This document shows, one piece after another, positions 1-59,888 of a stretch of DNA of 64,000 nt. The notes beneath the pieces are model-generated. The model saw only the letters and a list, made by a program, of their open reading frames with translations, was not told the DNA's origin and searched no databases. The position numbers and the translations under genes were made by a program. Numbering within the stretch: position 1 is the stretch's first letter; every line of letters starts with the position of its first letter. This stretch comes from Thermococcus sp. LS1 (lineage in GTDB: Archaea > Methanobacteriota_B > Thermococci > Thermococcales > Thermococcaceae), in the NCBI RefSeq assembly GCF_012027395.1, contig NZ_SNUJ01000001.1, positions 248,001 to 312,000 on the forward strand, read 5' to 3'.

Positions 1-362
1 GCGTGATTTTCTCTAGAGAGTACACAGTCGAAACTATGAGTGCTAGCGAGACCGAGAACTACTACGATGACAGGGCAGAAGTCAAGGCCTACCTCGGCGA
101 GCCAAATCTTCCGAACGCCTGGAGCAGCGTGGAGCCGAAGCTCCAAGCAGTGTCAGGGATTGGGGTGAAGATAACCCCTAATGATATCGAGGTAGGTCCC
201 GGAGAAAACGCGACCTTTGAGGTTAAAATAGACACCCATGGAGCCGTTCCAGGAAAAACCTACTACATCTACATAGTCGCCTTTGGGGAAAAGGGGTGGA
301 AGGGCTGGGCTGTGCTGGAAGTGAAGATCTGGATGGTAACAACCTCAAATTACAACCCCTAA
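1..362 (+). CDS. C-terminal end of a secreted or surface protein (5' truncated)
   Basis: The frame is open to the left window edge and stops with TAA at 360-362, so this is the tail of a longer gene; the GTG at position 3 is probably not the real start. The visible 119 residues end in a beta-rich module of about 60 residues (PNDIEVGPGENATFEV, then alternating hydrophobic strands rich in Tyr and Trp), which looks like the Ig/CARDB-like domain found at the end of archaeal surface proteins and secreted proteases. There is no C-terminal membrane anchor. It is convergent with tldD and overlaps it by 4 bp. The function of the full protein cannot be told from this piece. Confidence 0.6.
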   Translation, partial: VIFSREYTVETMSASETENYYDDRAEVKAYLGEPNLPNAWSSVEPKLQAVSGIGVKITPNDIEVGPGENATFEVKIDTHGAVPGKTYYIYIVAFGEKGWKGWAVLEVKIWMVTTSNYNP

Positions 363-1720
363 CGTAGCCCTCCTACAACGGCCCTCGTTAGAACGTGCGG
401 CCCGCCGTCGTCGACCGGAACCCACTGGCCCTTGCCGCAGTAGCCGGGGAACTCAACGGTCAGGTCATTCCCGATGGCGCGTATATTCCTCAGGACGTCG
501 AGTATCTTGCCGGATAGAGCGACATCACGAACCTGCTCCTTTATCTCGCCGTTCTCGATTATGTAGCCCTCTTTAGCTCCAAAGGTGAACGTCCCGTTGG
601 CGGTATCAACCTCACCGCCCTTGTCGCCTATCATGTAGAGGCCACGCTTAACCTCGCTCAGCATCTCCTCAAAGCTCCAGTCTCGGGGTTCAACGTAGGT
701 GTTGGACATCCTCACGAGGGGCTGGTAGCTGTAGCCCTGGGCCCTGCCGTGACCATTAGGCTCTAAACCCAAAACTGCCGCTGTCTCTCTGTCGTTGAGG
801 TAGTTAAGGAGAACGCCGTTCTTGATTATCTCCACGCGCTTCGCCCTGATTCCCTCGTCGTCGTAGATGTAGGAGCCGAACTTGCCGGGCAGAGTTGGGT
901 CGTCAACGACGGTGAGCTCCTCCACGGCTATTCTCTCACCGAGCCTCCCCGTCAGGATGCTCTCGCCTGTCTTTATAGCATCTGCCTCGGCCGCATGACC
1001 CAGGGCCTCGTGGATGAAGACACCTGTAAGCTCAGGATCCATTATCATGTCAAACTCCCCCGAGGGAGGGGACTTCGCGCTGAGCAGGGAGATGGCCTTC
1101 TCCCTCACAAAGGCCGTCCAGCGGGTCAGATCAACTCCTTCAACCAATTCCCAGCCGGCTGCTCCCCCGAAGCTCTTCCAGTACTGCTGCATCTCGCCGT
1201 TGCCTTTGGCCGTGACCGAAAAGCTCAGCCTTATCCTCGGAACCACCGTCTCTATCTCACTCCCGAGGGAGTTGAAGTACAGCTGCTCCTTTAGGCCGTC
1301 TCCATAGGAAACGCTCCTGTTTGAAATGGAATCTCCTTTAAGGAGTGAATCAACCTCCTTGACAAGAGAAAGCTTGTCCTCGATGTCAACGTCCAAAAAA
1401 GATTGCTTGACCTTTATCTCCGCCCTGTCTTTTACTGGATCGCCAAGGTATATCCTCGAGTCACCCTTCGAGAGCTTCGCTATTTTCATGGCAGTTTCTA
1501 TCGCCTTCTCCACCCTGCTCATGTCGTTGGCGCTCGAGAAGCCCCAGGCCCCATTGAAGGCCCTCACTCCGATGCCTATTTCGGTGTTGAGGGCAAGCTC
1601 CTCGAGCTGAGAGTTCTGCATGGTGAGGTGTGAGGCGGTGACCTTGGTTATCCGTATTTCATAATATAATATACCGTAACGTCTCGCCAGCTCCTCAGCT
1701 TTTCTCATCAATCTCTCCAT
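359..1720 (-). CDS. tldD: TldD/PmbA family metalloprotease
   Basis: Homologue of TldD, the metalloprotease that with TldE/PmbA degrades unfolded or modified peptides in the cytoplasm. The zinc-site motif HEALGH lies at about residues 237-242 and is followed by AEAD; the C-terminal signature has GYCGKGQ, whose Cys is a metal ligand in the family. The 453-aa length is normal for TldD. The frame extends 21 codons further upstream, but I place the start at ATG 1720, preceded by GGTGA at 5 nt; the upstream codons run through the TATA-like promoter shared with the divergent HTH gene. No TldE partner is seen in the window. Confidence 0.93.
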   Translation of the reverse strand: MERLMRKAEELARRYGILYYEIRITKVTASHLTMQNSQLEELALNTEIGIGVRAFNGAWGFSSANDMSRVEKAIETAMKIAKLSKGDSRIYLGDPVKDRAEIKVKQSFLDVDIEDKLSLVKEVDSLLKGDSISNRSVSYGDGLKEQLYFNSLGSEIETVVPRIRLSFSVTAKGNGEMQQYWKSFGGAAGWELVEGVDLTRWTAFVREKAISLLSAKSPPSGEFDMIMDPELTGVFIHEALGHAAEADAIKTGESILTGRLGERIAVEELTVVDDPTLPGKFGSYIYDDEGIRAKRVEIIKNGVLLNYLNDRETAAVLGLEPNGHGRAQGYSYQPLVRMSNTYVEPRDWSFEEMLSEVKRGLYMIGDKGGEVDTANGTFTFGAKEGYIIENGEIKEQVRDVALSGKILDVLRNIRAIGNDLTVEFPGYCGKGQWVPVDDGGPHVLTRAVVGGLR

Positions 1721-1793
1721 GCTCTCACCGGAGGACATAAAAGGGAGAGCATTTATATTCGTTCCTATAGAGGGATGAACCACAAGAGTTTAA
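1721..1793. promoter_or_regulatory. Divergent promoter between tldD and the HTH gene
   Basis: A 73-bp gap between divergent genes contains the AT-rich element ATTTATATTC at about 1750-1759, readable as a TATA box on either strand, and GGTGA for tldD at 1725-1730. The encoded HTH protein is a plausible regulator of its own promoter and of tldD, but no clear operator palindrome is visible. Confidence 0.5.
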
Positions 1794-2312
1794 GTGTTGG
1801 ACATGGAGAGGCGTAATGAAATCCTCCACCACATCCAAAGCAAACCCGGAATAACCTTCAGAGAACTGGCAAGAGAGCTGGGAGTAGGAATAGGCGACCT
1901 GCAATACCACCTCCACAGACTGGAGAAGGAAGGCAGAATTTTTTCAAAAAAGCTCGGCAAGAGGCGCTACATCTTCCCCAGGGGCTTCGAGAAGGAGTAC
2001 CAGAAGCTCGTCATAGCGATATCAACGGAAACGAGAAGGAAAATCCTGCTCCTCCTCATGGAGGGATCTATGGGACAGAGCGAGATAGCAAAGCGCCTGA
2101 ACCTCAGCCAGCCGACGGTGAGCTACCACATGGGGGAGCTGGTGAAGCTCGGGATAGTTGAGGCAAGGCGAGAGGGAAAGAACGTGATATACACCCTCTC
2201 CTACGATCCCGCGATAATAGCACGCGTAATAAGGGACTACCGCCCAAGCCTCTGGGAGAAGCTTGCCGACAGCCTGATAGACCTGCTCACAAGCGTGGGT
2301 GATGAGGAATGA
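1794..2312 (+). CDS. Transcriptional regulator with two winged-helix domains
   Basis: A 172-aa protein with two ArsR/MarR-like winged helix-turn-helix units. The first is at about residues 8-60 (FRELARELGVGIGDLQYHLHRLE). The second is at about 75-140 (SEIAKRLNLSQPTVSYHMGEL, then a wing with RREGKNVIYTL). The tandem arrangement is common in archaeal regulators, and no ligand-binding domain is present. GTG 1794 and ATG 1803 are both possible starts. It is divergent from tldD and overlaps the next small membrane gene by 4 bp, so the two are probably cotranscribed. The target genes are unknown; autoregulation is an inference. Confidence 0.8.
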   Translation: MLDMERRNEILHHIQSKPGITFRELARELGVGIGDLQYHLHRLEKEGRIFSKKLGKRRYIFPRGFEKEYQKLVIAISTETRRKILLLLMEGSMGQSEIAKRLNLSQPTVSYHMGELVKLGIVEARREGKNVIYTLSYDPAIIARVIRDYRPSLWEKLADSLIDLLTSVGDEE

Positions 2313-2563
2313 TTGAGACCGTCCTAGCGATTGTAGCAATAATCCTTGCCCTGGCTTTAGCCGGGGTGTCGCTCATAGCCTACAGGAAGAGCCACCTCCG
2401 CGCGGCGCTCTATCTTATAATTGCCTTCCTCCTGCTGGCGATAAAGAAAATACTGGAGGCACTTCACCTAGCCGCGTGGATAGAGAGAGACGTAAGCATA
2501 GCCGTAGGCGGACTGGAGGTAATCGTCCTGCTCCTCTTTGTCCTGGCAATATGGAAGCGTTAG
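2309..2563 (+). CDS. Small membrane protein coupled to the HTH regulator
   Basis: An 84-aa hydrophobic protein with three predicted membrane helices (about 3-24, 30-50 and 62-82) and short basic or acidic linkers. Its ATG overlaps the stop of the HTH gene (ATGA), which points to translational coupling. Small membrane proteins of this layout often accompany archaeal HTH regulators, and a role as membrane partner or sensor is possible, but nothing in the sequence proves it. It overlaps the convergent Usp gene by 4 bp. I do not recognise a characterised family. Confidence 0.7.
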   Translation: MIETVLAIVAIILALALAGVSLIAYRKSHLRAALYLIIAFLLLAIKKILEALHLAAWIERDVSIAVGGLEVIVLLLFVLAIWKR

Positions 2564-3009
2564 CGGACGATCATGACAGGCGGCTCTATGGCGCCAACGA
2601 CCTCCTCAAGCAGGCTTCCTATTCTCGTCTTTCCGCTCCTTCCGTAGGCCCCCATGACAACGAGGCCATACTTCCCGGAGTTTGCCTCCTCAAGGATTTT
2701 CTCCTTCGCGTTCCCCTCCACTATCCTGAATGAGCAGTTTATCCCTTCCTGGTGGCAGAGCTCGAGGAGGTTCGTCATTATGTCCCTTATGCTCTTCTTC
2801 ATTTCCCTCCAGATTTCCTCCTCGAACTTCTGGACGTTCTTCAAATCCTGGCTCAGCATGCCCATGTTGAAAGCCAGGGCCTTTGCCTCCCTTTTATCGA
2901 GAACCGAGAAGAGGGTGACCTTACCCTTCTTTTTCTTGGCTATCGCGATAGCATGAAGCGCCGCCTTCTGACTCCACTTTGAGCCATCAACGAGCACGAG
3001 TATCTTCAT
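2560..3009 (-). CDS. Universal stress protein (UspA-like), single domain
   Basis: A 149-aa Usp fold. The N-terminal strand ILVLVDGS supplies the nucleotide-binding Asp, and the C-terminal segment VVMGAYGRSGKTRIGS resembles the GxxG-x(n)-G[ST] ATP-binding loop, followed by PVMIVR. It sits 3 bp after the ArsB/NhaD-type transporter gene on the same strand, and another Usp gene lies just before that transporter, so the three probably form one operon. A regulatory or stress role connected to the transporter is an inference from this context. Confidence 0.88.
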   Translation of the reverse strand: MKILVLVDGSKWSQKAALHAIAIAKKKKGKVTLFSVLDKREAKALAFNMGMLSQDLKNVQKFEEEIWREMKKSIRDIMTNLLELCHQEGINCSFRIVEGNAKEKILEEANSGKYGLVVMGAYGRSGKTRIGSLLEEVVGAIEPPVMIVR

Positions 3010-55145: not shown

Positions 55146-56408
55146 ATGAGGTCAGTGGTTATAGGCTCTGGAATCGGCGGACTGCTAACCGCATCATTCC
55201 TGGCTAAAAACGGCTACGAAGTTACTGTTCTTGAAAAAGCACCCTACATCGGGGGAAGATGCACAAACCTAAACTACAAGGGCTTTGGCCTCTCAACCGG
55301 AGCGTTCCACATGATACCCCACGGCGAAGATGGCCCTCTGGCCCATCTCCTTAAGCTCCTCGGTGCAGATGTTCAAATCGTGAACTCCAATCCCAAGGGC
55401 GTGATTTTCTATGAGGGTAGGACCTTTCACTACCGTGAGGGCTGGAAATACCTTAGCCTCACTGAGAAGGCTAAAGCAACAAAGCTCCTGCTTGACATCA
55501 AGCGCGAAAAGCTGCCTCGGGGAGAAGAAGCCGAGATGAGCGGCCGCGAGTGGATACGCGAAAGGGTTGGCGACAATGAGTTCGTTGACCTCTTCATCAA
55601 AAGCTTCCTCGGCTGGGCCGACAGCGTTCTGGACGTTCCAGCGATAGAGCTTGCCAAGGAGATAAAGGCCGCTTTGAGATGGGGCGGGCCTGGCTTAGTC
55701 AAGGGCGGCTGTAAGTCAATACCTGAGGCCCTCTCCGCGATAATCCGCATGAACGGCGGAAGGATACTCACAAAGAAGAAGGCGGTCGAGGTTGACCACG
55801 AGGCCAAGAAGGTAATCACCGCCGACAACGAAGAGCTTACCTACGACGTGCTCATCTCCAACGTCGGGATAAAGGAGACGGTAAGCCTCATCGGCAGGGA
55901 TGCCTTCGATAGGGACTACCTCAAGCGTGTCGATGAATTAAAGCCCAGCGAGGGAATAAAGTACAACATTACCCTGAAGGGCGGGCCGAGGATAGGCAAC
56001 ACGGTGGTTTTCACCCTCGACACGGAAAGAATAAACGGCTACAACGAGCCGAGCTCGATAAGTCCAGAGCTCGCTAAAGAGGGCTACACCCTGATAATGC
56101 TCCACCACGCTTTGCAGAGCAGGAACGTGAAGGCCGAGCAGAAGAAGGGCATCAATGATATTTACAGGATATTCCCAGACATTGATAATGAGGGGGAAAT
56201 TCTGCTGATTCAGACCTACCTCGACGGAAACCCCGTGAACCGCGTAGCGAGTGGCCAGCTCGTCGAAGACTTCCCGATAAGAGATATTTACGTCGTCGGC
56301 GACGCCTACAAGATGCCAGGCGGAATAGAGGTTGACGGCATAGCCCTGGGAGTCATGAGGGTTCTAGAAAAGCTCGGCCTCGGAAGCTTCTCTGAGTGGT
56401 ATCTCTGA
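55146..56408 (+). CDS. Phytoene dehydrogenase-like FAD oxidoreductase
   Basis: A 420-aa FAD-dependent amine-oxidase/phytoene-desaturase-type protein. FAD loop GSGIGGLLTASFLAKNG at the N-terminus, LEKAPYIGGRC, and the C-terminal FAD motif IYVVGDAYKMPGGIEVDGIALG. Thermococcales do not make C40 carotenoids, so another isoprenoid or small-molecule redox role is likelier; the substrate is unknown. AGGTGAG precedes ATG 55146. It follows gor by 90 bp, with a TATA-like CTTATATTTTCCC at about 55106. Confidence 0.82.
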   Translation: MRSVVIGSGIGGLLTASFLAKNGYEVTVLEKAPYIGGRCTNLNYKGFGLSTGAFHMIPHGEDGPLAHLLKLLGADVQIVNSNPKGVIFYEGRTFHYREGWKYLSLTEKAKATKLLLDIKREKLPRGEEAEMSGREWIRERVGDNEFVDLFIKSFLGWADSVLDVPAIELAKEIKAALRWGGPGLVKGGCKSIPEALSAIIRMNGGRILTKKKAVEVDHEAKKVITADNEELTYDVLISNVGIKETVSLIGRDAFDRDYLKRVDELKPSEGIKYNITLKGGPRIGNTVVFTLDTERINGYNEPSSISPELAKEGYTLIMLHHALQSRNVKAEQKKGINDIYRIFPDIDNEGEILLIQTYLDGNPVNRVASGQLVEDFPIRDIYVVGDAYKMPGGIEVDGIALGVMRVLEKLGLGSFSEWYL

Positions 56409-56894
56409 ATTTCCTACCCATTTACCGAAACGCTTTTTTACAATTCCTCCGTACTGTGAAACGTGGTGGACCATGGAGAAGCTCTCCGCCCTTTTGATTA
56501 TCATGCTCTTCTCATCGATGTGGCCAACCGGAACGAGCCCACCCACCGGCGACGCCCAGGATTTTGCCCTCAAGCTCCTCGGCACGGAGTACTACACGAA
56601 CTCAAGCTCCCTCGGTGGGCTCCTCAACTTCACTATTGATGAGCTCTCGGAGTTCGCCTCGAAGAATGTCACCGACGATGCCCAGTACAGAGACCTGATG
56701 AAGTTCCTGGCAGGGATGAACACCTACGAGAGCACGAGGATAGCTCTCATTGAGACGAAGGATTACTATATCGCGAGCAAAGACCTTGAAGGGGTCATGT
56801 ACGACCCGTTCACCGGCCTCGACAAGAGATGGGCACCGATGACCGCCAAGACCAGCGATGAGAACCTCGATGTAGCGTTCTTCGTCGGCACCTG

Positions 56895-57040
56895 CGGTAT
56901 CTATCAGCCCCTCAACCCGGTTTACGGGTTCGAGTTCGACAGGTGGAAGTTCCTCAGCAGGGTCTTTGACCAGGGGACTTACCTCCTCAACGGCACCTAC
57001 GTTCCCTACAGGTGCAACTGGACGATAGAAGAGACTCCAG
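56895..57040 (+). repeat. Tandem duplication, unit 1 (146 bp)
   Basis: First unit, beginning CGGTATCTATCAGCCC and ending GAAGAGACTCCAG. It is in the correct frame of the binding-protein gene (CGIYQPLNPVYGFEFDRW at its start). Confidence 0.95.
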
Positions 57041-57186
57041 CGGTATCTATCAGCCCCTCAACCCGGTTTACGGGTTCGAGTTCGACAGGTGGAAGTTCCT
57101 CAGCAGGGTCTTTGACCAGGGGACTTACCTCCTCAACGGCACCTACGTTCCCTACAGGTGCAACTGGACGATAGAAGAGACTCCAG
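57041..57186 (+). repeat. Tandem duplication, unit 2 (146 bp)
   Basis: Second unit, identical base for base to 56895-57040 by eye. Because 146 is not divisible by three it is read in a shifted frame and truncates the protein; the following sequence (GCAAGGTTCCGG) continues in the original coding sense after unit 2. Confidence 0.95.
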
Positions 57187-58940
57187 GCAAGGTTCCGGAA
57201 GACGCGGTGGTCTACAACCAAACCCTCGGATGGATCAACCCCCATGCCGGTGAAGACTACGCCGTCGCGATAACGTACCGGTGCGGCTTTGGGGAATGGC
57301 ACAACGGGATAAAAAGAAGCATCGAGGACACCAAGAACTTCATCGCGTTCCTCTACACCTGGGCCTACCGCGACTTTCCGGGGGATCCGTACTACGAGAA
57401 GAAAATCGCGACGGACGAGACGGTTTTCCCCAATGTTCTCGGCTTCAGGTTCGACGAGAAGGGCTACACAATCTACCTGAAAAGCAGGGGACCGCTCGTA
57501 AGCGACCTGCTCGCGGAGAAGTACCTCTTCTACCCTTCGATGCCGTGGGAGCTCTACTGGGCGATGGGAGAGCTTGTGGCAAACGAGTACCACTACCAAA
57601 TCTGGGGAACCAACTACACCTTCATCCCGAAGCACGGGAGTTCCCTCTACGGAAGGGAGGAAATGCCGATAGACCTTGCGACTGAAGAAACCCTTCGTGA
57701 CCTCTCAGACGTCATCGAGGCGATACTGGAAGGGAATGCACCGGAATTCCCAGGGATAAACTGGAGCTTGGCCAGTGAGAGGTTCAGGGCAGACCTGGAT
57801 TTCTACCACCGCTACGGCCACATGCTTTTAGGGAACGGGCCGTACGTCTTCACGGAACTCGACGCCCTGGATATGATATACCGCCTTGAGAAGTTCAAGG
57901 GTGAAAGGGAAGTTCTTGGAAAACTCCTGCCAGCCGAGGGCACGCCAGAGGTTATGGTTTGCTACGGAAGGCAGAACCCCAGCGCGGTTATCAGGGATGT
58001 CCTCAACGGGGACCTCGACCTCTTCATGGACCCCCTACCGGCCAGCTACTATCGCGATCTCAAGTGGTATGAGGAAAAGGGCAGACTCAAGCTCTACCCC
58101 AAGGCGAAGAACCGCTACGGACTCGTTCTCAATCCAGCCCACAACGGAAGCGCTCCCCTCGTGGTGGAGGGCGATAAAGTCTACTTCAACCCCTTCGCAG
58201 TGAGAGAGGTTCGCCTCGCACTCAACTACCTCGTCAACAGGAGCTATCTTACCGAGGAGATTCCCTGGTCGGTCCCTGCCTTCGACAACCTCGGGCCGGT
58301 TCACCCCGGCGAGAAAAACGTGAGGAGAGTTTACGAGCTCCTTAACCTGAGTGAAGAGGGGAACTGGAGCTACGGAATGCGGCTGTTTGAGGAGGGTATG
58401 GAGAAGGTCAGGCTCCAGCTGGAGGAGGAAAATCACACTCTCGAAAGGGTCAACGGGACGTGGTACTTCGATGGCGAACCGGTGGAGATAATCCTCGTGG
58501 TTGACAACACGTACCGGTACAACCCAATGGACGAGAGCCCGTGGATAGGCCAATACATCAGTAAAATCTTCAGGGAACTGGGGTTCGGGGTGAAGTGGGA
58601 GTACTGGGACATCTACAAGGCCTACTACGAAATCTACAAGAAAGGGACGTTCTGGCACGGCTACATAATCCGCTTCTGGGGAACAACACCCCACTGGACT
58701 TCGAAGCCCATATTTGAGCCCCGGCACTTCCTCAACCTAACCACCAACATCACCCTCTCAGAGTTCCTGAACTACCTCGCAGAAATCAATGGCTTTGTCC
58801 CGAAGGAGCGGGAGGATGAGGACTTTACCTTTGCCAAGTTCTCCCACCTTTTCCCGAACCTTTTTCCAGTGAACAGGGCTGGCTCCTAACGAACGTTTTT
58901 ATTCTCCTGAGCGTAGATAAGCATCCCGGAGGTGAGACTT

Positions 58941-59888
58941 ATGAAGAGGGTAGTCATAGCTCTCGGCGGGAACGCGATTCTTCAGCGAGGTCAAAAGGGC
59001 ACTTACGAGGAGCAGATGAGCAATGTTATGAAAACTGCCAAGCAGATAGTCGATATAATCCTCGATGGCGATTATGAGGTTGTAATCACCCATGGAAACG
59101 GCCCCCAGGTCGGTGCCCTTCTCCTCCATATGGATGCTGGGCAGCAGCTTCACGGCATCCCAGCCCAGCCCATGGACGTTGCCGGAGCGATGACTCAGGG
59201 CCAGATAGGATACATGATCCAGCAGGCGATAAGAAACGAGCTGAAGAGGAGGGGCGTTGAGCGACCAGTTGCGACTATAGTCACCCAGACGCTCGTTGAC
59301 AAAAACGACCCGGCTTTCCAGAACCCGAGCAAGCCGGTCGGCCCGTTCTACGACGAGGAGACGGCAAAGAGGCTCGCGAAGGAGAAGGGCTGGGTCGTGA
59401 TTGAGGACTCCGGCAGGGGCTGGAGGCGCGTTGTGCCGAGTCCGGATCCAATAGGTCACGTCGAGGCCCCAGTGATTCAGGATCTAGTTGAGAAGGGATT
59501 CATAGTCATAGCCAGCGGCGGCGGTGGCGTTCCCGTTATCGAGGAGGACGGAATGCTCAAGGGAGTTGAGGCCGTCATAGACAAAGACCTTGCCGGAGAG
59601 AAGCTCGCAGAAGAGGTAAACGCCGACATCTTCATGATTCTAACCGACGTGAACGGTGCGGCGATAAACTACGGAAAGCCCGACGAGAGGTGGCTCGAGA
59701 AAGTCACCGTCGAAGAGCTCAAGCGCTACTATAATGAGGGCCACTTCAAGAAGGGCAGCATGGGGCCAAAGGTTCTCGCCGCCATACGTTTTGTCGAATG
59801 GGGCGGCGAGAGGGCGGTTATAGCCGCGCTGGATAAGGCCGTGGAAGCGCTCGAAGGCAAAACCGGGACTCAGGTCATAAAGGGCTGA
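58941..59888 (+). CDS. arcC: Carbamate kinase
   Basis: A 315-aa carbamate kinase, which makes or uses carbamoyl phosphate with ATP. Signatures: [63 protein letters not shown] and [14 protein letters not shown]. In Pyrococcus-type archaea it acts as a carbamoyl-phosphate synthetase from carbamate. GGAGGTGAG precedes ATG 58941. It is monocistronic with a TATA-like element at about 58896-58904. Confidence 0.95.

Follow-up and report, generated by a model that had tools for sequence, protein, structure and literature searches.

The window, i.e., the whole stretch of 64,000 nucleotides of the Thermococcus sp. LS1 genome analysed here, harbors between a flavoprotein gene and the carbamate kinase gene arcC a broken gene for a solute-binding protein (SBP), interrupted by a tandem duplication (Table 1). 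The assignment of this protein to family 5, made in the first-pass annotation, is upheld by homology to other SBPs of the genus and to PDB entry 7fi3 (E = 1.2e-53), though the score with the Pfam profile SBP_bac_5 (PF00496), 21.2 bits, is under the curated cut-off of 32.4. Judging from its homologs, the product is an oligopeptide-type SBP, related to the Thermococcales oligopeptide-binding proteins (7fi3 and genus relatives of 800–860 aa) across the binding-protein body (7fi3 residues 21–550). Both the window protein and its two orthologs fall short of these relatives in length. The closest proteins are the syntenic ones in two other Thermococcus genomes, G019 and G025 (52–53% amino acid identity), followed by the best longer SBPs of other species with 41–46% identity to the window protein. 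Genes for an ABC permease and ATPase are common, but not obligatory, companions of family-5 SBP genes; neither was found beside this one, its neighbors being the CrtI-like flavoprotein gene and arcC, so it represents an orphan SBP gene.

Table 1. Features of the SBP locus (window positions) and other direct repeats of the same genome (contig positions)
Feature	Coordinates	Strand	Remarks
NAD/FAD-binding amine-oxidase/CrtI-like flavoprotein, 420 aa (upstream neighbor)	55146..56408	+	Adjoins arcC in 20 relatives
Truncated reading frame, 233 aa	56473..57174	+	ATG at 56473, stop at 57174
First 146-bp unit	56894..57039	+	100% identical to second unit (TRF); boundaries by direct comparison
Second 146-bp unit	57040..57185	+	Base 57186 (G) prolongs the match; junction slidable by 1 bp
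Rest of SBP frame	57039..58889	+	Open from junction to stop 58887–58889; mostly homologous to family-5 SBPs
Conserved arcC upstream region	58823..58935	+	Common to 23 Thermococcus genomes
Carbamate kinase arcC (downstream neighbor)	58941..59888	+	TIGR00746 above cut-off
Non-adjacent direct repeats (G000, same genome)	C1:546480-547349; C1:622458-623263; C4:121058-122541		Exact

Tandem Repeats Finder (TRF) reported at 56894–57186 a period of 146, 2.0 copies and 100% matches without indels; together with the direct comparison of the boundaries, this confirms the earlier description of two identical 146-bp units placed head-to-tail. The start given there, 56895, is an equivalent register of 56894, since one G is common to the junction ends. 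The left boundary of the first unit is CACCT/GCGGTATC, the junction between the units reads ACTCCA/GCGGTATC, and the right boundary of the second unit is ACTCCA/GGCAAG, so that the microhomology at the junction amounts to this single G (57186), i.e., 1 bp. An exact match of 147 bases at a lag of 146 is far above the chance expectation. No further copy of the unit was found in the genome, and no structured RNA families were found in the region. The unit folds no better than shuffled sequence (z −0.85), revealing no strong secondary structure to drive slippage. The number of units in the cell could exceed two, or be mixed, in a way invisible to the assembly.

As 146 is not divisible by three, the reading frame is lost on crossing from the first unit into the second, where a stop follows after 135 nt. 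The product consists of a hydrophobic N-terminus (a probable signal peptide), 189 aa of true SBP sequence and then 44 out-of-frame residues. Hence, the truncation noted at first pass is real at the level of the frame, which ends after 233 aa, and so is the predicted effect of deleting one unit: the one-unit version is an open CDS of 2271 nt coding for 756 aa plus the stop, with no other frameshift or stop. On the evidence of the frame, the duplication seemingly abolished the function of the gene. One might suppose instead that the split gene works as two pieces, a secreted N-terminal fragment and a C-terminal protein translated from an internal start, e.g., GTG 57012, where a frame of 625 aa begins. 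Such a protein, however, would have neither a signal sequence nor the N-terminal part kept in the unsplit orthologs, and its first residues would be encoded in the wrong frame of the first unit; the two-piece arrangement is therefore very hard to credit, and loss of function is the reading followed below.

A comparison of unit number with relatives, called for by the first-pass annotation, gave one unit in both syntenic relatives: G019 and G025 carry an intact frame with no repeat at the site. Their SBP genes differ from each other with a dN of 0.045 and a dS of 0.258 (dN/dS ~0.18), a sign of purifying selection. The presence of intact one-unit relatives indicates that having two units, as in the window, is the derived condition; the purifying selection acting on them suggests, in addition, that the one-unit frame is ancestral and that the gene was formerly functional. 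A search of genome contigs and viral contigs found no genome of the same or a near species.

The SBP gene occurs at this locus in three of the 23 Thermococcus genomes compared (window 56473–58889, G019:C1:1409063-1410889 and G025:C3:27127-28953), and in the other 20 the flavoprotein gene and arcC are directly adjacent. In a tree of the flanking genes, the three carriers form no clade, the nodes near the window's branch being weakly supported; such scattering suggests that the gene is accessory and has been lost or transferred repeatedly. From its patchy occurrence, the SBP gene looks dispensable.

The 3' end of the gene shows a peculiarity of its own. In this genome only, the SBP frame extends with its final 22 codons into the strongly conserved region upstream of arcC and stops inside it; the SBP genes of G019 and G025 end ahead of this region. 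The motifs conserved there across the 23 genomes are TTTACCTTTGNCAACTTAT ... CGAACCTTTTTCCAGTGAAC ... CTAACGAACGTTTTTAT ... GGAGGTGA, and two similar CGAAC-TTTTT boxes are found in the region about 36 bp apart. The region is possibly a tandem promoter or operator.

The genome was scanned over 1,994,849 bases in six contigs, the 19 small contigs (248–447 bp) being left out. The 146-bp repeat is the only exact tandem duplication with a period of 12–3000 in this 1.995 Mb, and TRF run on the same readable sequence returned no other array with a period of at least 20 and a score of at least 100. Likewise, 400 kb taken from the finished G019 genome contained no such tandem duplication, and 336 kb of other Thermococcus loci no tandem repeat with a period above 27 bp. 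Because the repeat is unique in its genome and has no counterpart in G019 or in these other loci, it belongs neither to a hotspot family nor to an assembly-wide error. The same genome also contains non-adjacent exact direct repeats of 55–95 bp spaced 0.6–1.4 kb apart (Table 1).

Broken SBP genes are encountered elsewhere in the genus, with other types of lesion. Recurrent duplications were not found in the other Thermococcus SBP genes, and the broken ones among them carry other indels. Thus, in the finished genome G022 a family-5 SBP gene (L205, G022:C1:1226500-1230800) is broken by a 41-bp deletion; in two drafts, one SBP gene is frameshifted by the loss of 1 nt (L203 of G027) and another has a split frame (L204 of G026), sequencing error being possible in both. 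That the 41-bp deletion of G022 affects the part corresponding by homology to the window's duplicated unit is probably a coincidence.

As the assembly is a draft of 25 contigs, one has to consider that the genome contains one unit, the extra copy having been introduced by the assembler itself or during the closing of gaps or merging. An unmerged overlap would indeed leave two identical copies meeting bluntly with 1 bp in common, and relatives with one unit. Against this, no other duplication of the kind exists anywhere in the assembly scanned, and the repeat is internal to an 824-kb contig without N. The contig ends are informative as well: the left end of contig C4 and the right end of contig C5 share their terminal 127 bases exactly. 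An exact contig-end overlap of 127 bases is a common mark of a de Bruijn assembler run with k = 127, which tentatively suggests that the assembly was made in this way, with one pair of contig ends speaking for it and another pair sharing 69 bp. Under k = 127, a false overlap of 146 bp would have been merged automatically, and the 126 k-mers spanning the junction would have to derive from reads. An artefact is possible but disfavoured, and we rate it as unlikely; the duplication is taken to be real DNA in what follows.

The first-pass annotation regarded the event as very recent. The identity of the units agrees with this, but sets the age no tight limit: with not a single difference over 146 bp, a divergence of up to ~2% (95% limit, 3/146) is still allowed. 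Combined with the mutation rate of Sulfolobus acidocaldarius, ~3e-10 per bp per replication (PMC2688765), this corresponds to a loose upper limit of some 3e7 generations. The rest of the window frame is without other lesion, so the break appears to be young; this open frame and the expected instability of the repeat suggest an event much younger than that limit.

Overall, a recent, spontaneous and untargeted 146-bp duplication likely inactivated an accessory orphan SBP gene, as an ordinary mutation that is revertible in principle. The probable origin of the duplication is slippage during replication or an illegitimate joining event, with a microhomology of 1 bp; the frameshift at its junction would then have inactivated the gene, and removal of one unit, through slippage or by the copies recombining with each other, would give back exactly the 756-aa protein. 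Tandem duplications are a class of spontaneous mutation in the thermophilic archaeon S. acidocaldarius (PMC7785828), and the replicative polymerases PolB and PolD of Pyrococcus abyssi slip in vitro (PMC4134008). The S. acidocaldarius mutants likewise bear de novo tandem duplications in the genes of a thermophilic archaeon, but these (PMC7785828) are products of laboratory selection in a different phylum, whereas the Thermococcus duplication resides in a natural genome.

Reversible duplications of this kind are known from bacteria. In the pneumococcal capsule genes cap3A, cap8E and tts, as described by Waite et al. (2001, 2003) and cited in PMC4022640 and PMC4243769, spontaneous tandem duplications within the reading frame inactivate the gene and the loss of one unit restores it. 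The window locus shares with cap3A an exact in-ORF tandem duplication that breaks the frame and a full frame restored by the loss of one unit. Still, according to the same citing papers, both duplication and reversion were seen to happen in cultured pneumococci and were linked to a phenotype, whereas the Thermococcus case is a single sequence; the former system is bacterial, and the latter belongs to a hyperthermophilic archaeon. In Bordetella pertussis, an exact tandem duplication, one that the sister species lack, likewise inactivates a transport-related gene, that of the manganese exporter BP3410, and it was shown experimentally that precise loss of the duplication restores function under selection; no re-formed duplication was found in the resister clones tested (PMC8546581). 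The BP3410 duplication differs in being 30 bp long, in frame and present in ~98% of strains (PMC8546581); the Thermococcus one is 146 bp long, frameshifting and known from one sequence. By analogy with these cases, reversion of the window gene through loss of one unit is plausible.

The first-pass annotation went further and proposed phase variation, i.e., a maintained switch in which recombination would flip the population back and forth between an ON state with one unit and an OFF state with two, reversibly controlling the binding protein. The exact restoration of the frame and the bacterial precedents fit this proposal, and mixed states could persist if the organism is polyploid like Thermococcus kodakarensis, which has 7–19 genome copies (PMC4502288). 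Other findings do not favor it: neither the sequence nor the folding of the unit is special, the lesions of related SBP genes are ordinary indels, and the gene is an orphan, accessory and often missing in relatives. Moreover, the change is asymmetric, since re-forming a lost duplication needs a rare illegitimate event. In a contingency locus, one expects the repeat to be conserved in relatives or to vary in length. Here, the relatives G019 and G025 have one unit at the site, and the other Thermococcus SBP loci have no tandem repeat of comparable size. Phase variation is thus not borne out, with no hotspot, no recurrence in relatives, no other tandem repeats in the genome and a patchy, dispensable-looking orphan gene to act upon, and the maintained switch is considered very improbable. 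It is about as improbable that one- and two-unit alleles coexist and interconvert in a polyploid population, which would make this the first tandem-duplication switch of a nutrient-binding protein in Thermococcales; no comparable case of tandem duplication or phase variation in Thermococcus was found in the open-access literature.

The preferred reading thus remains a spontaneous duplication. Taken alone, it amounts to an ordinary loss of function, affecting a gene frequently missing from relatives. If real, it would be a clean natural case, in a hyperthermophilic archaeon, of a gene inactivated revertibly by tandem duplication, testable by a simple PCR length assay, and would offer a ready reporter for the speed of tandem-repeat loss in Thermococcales.
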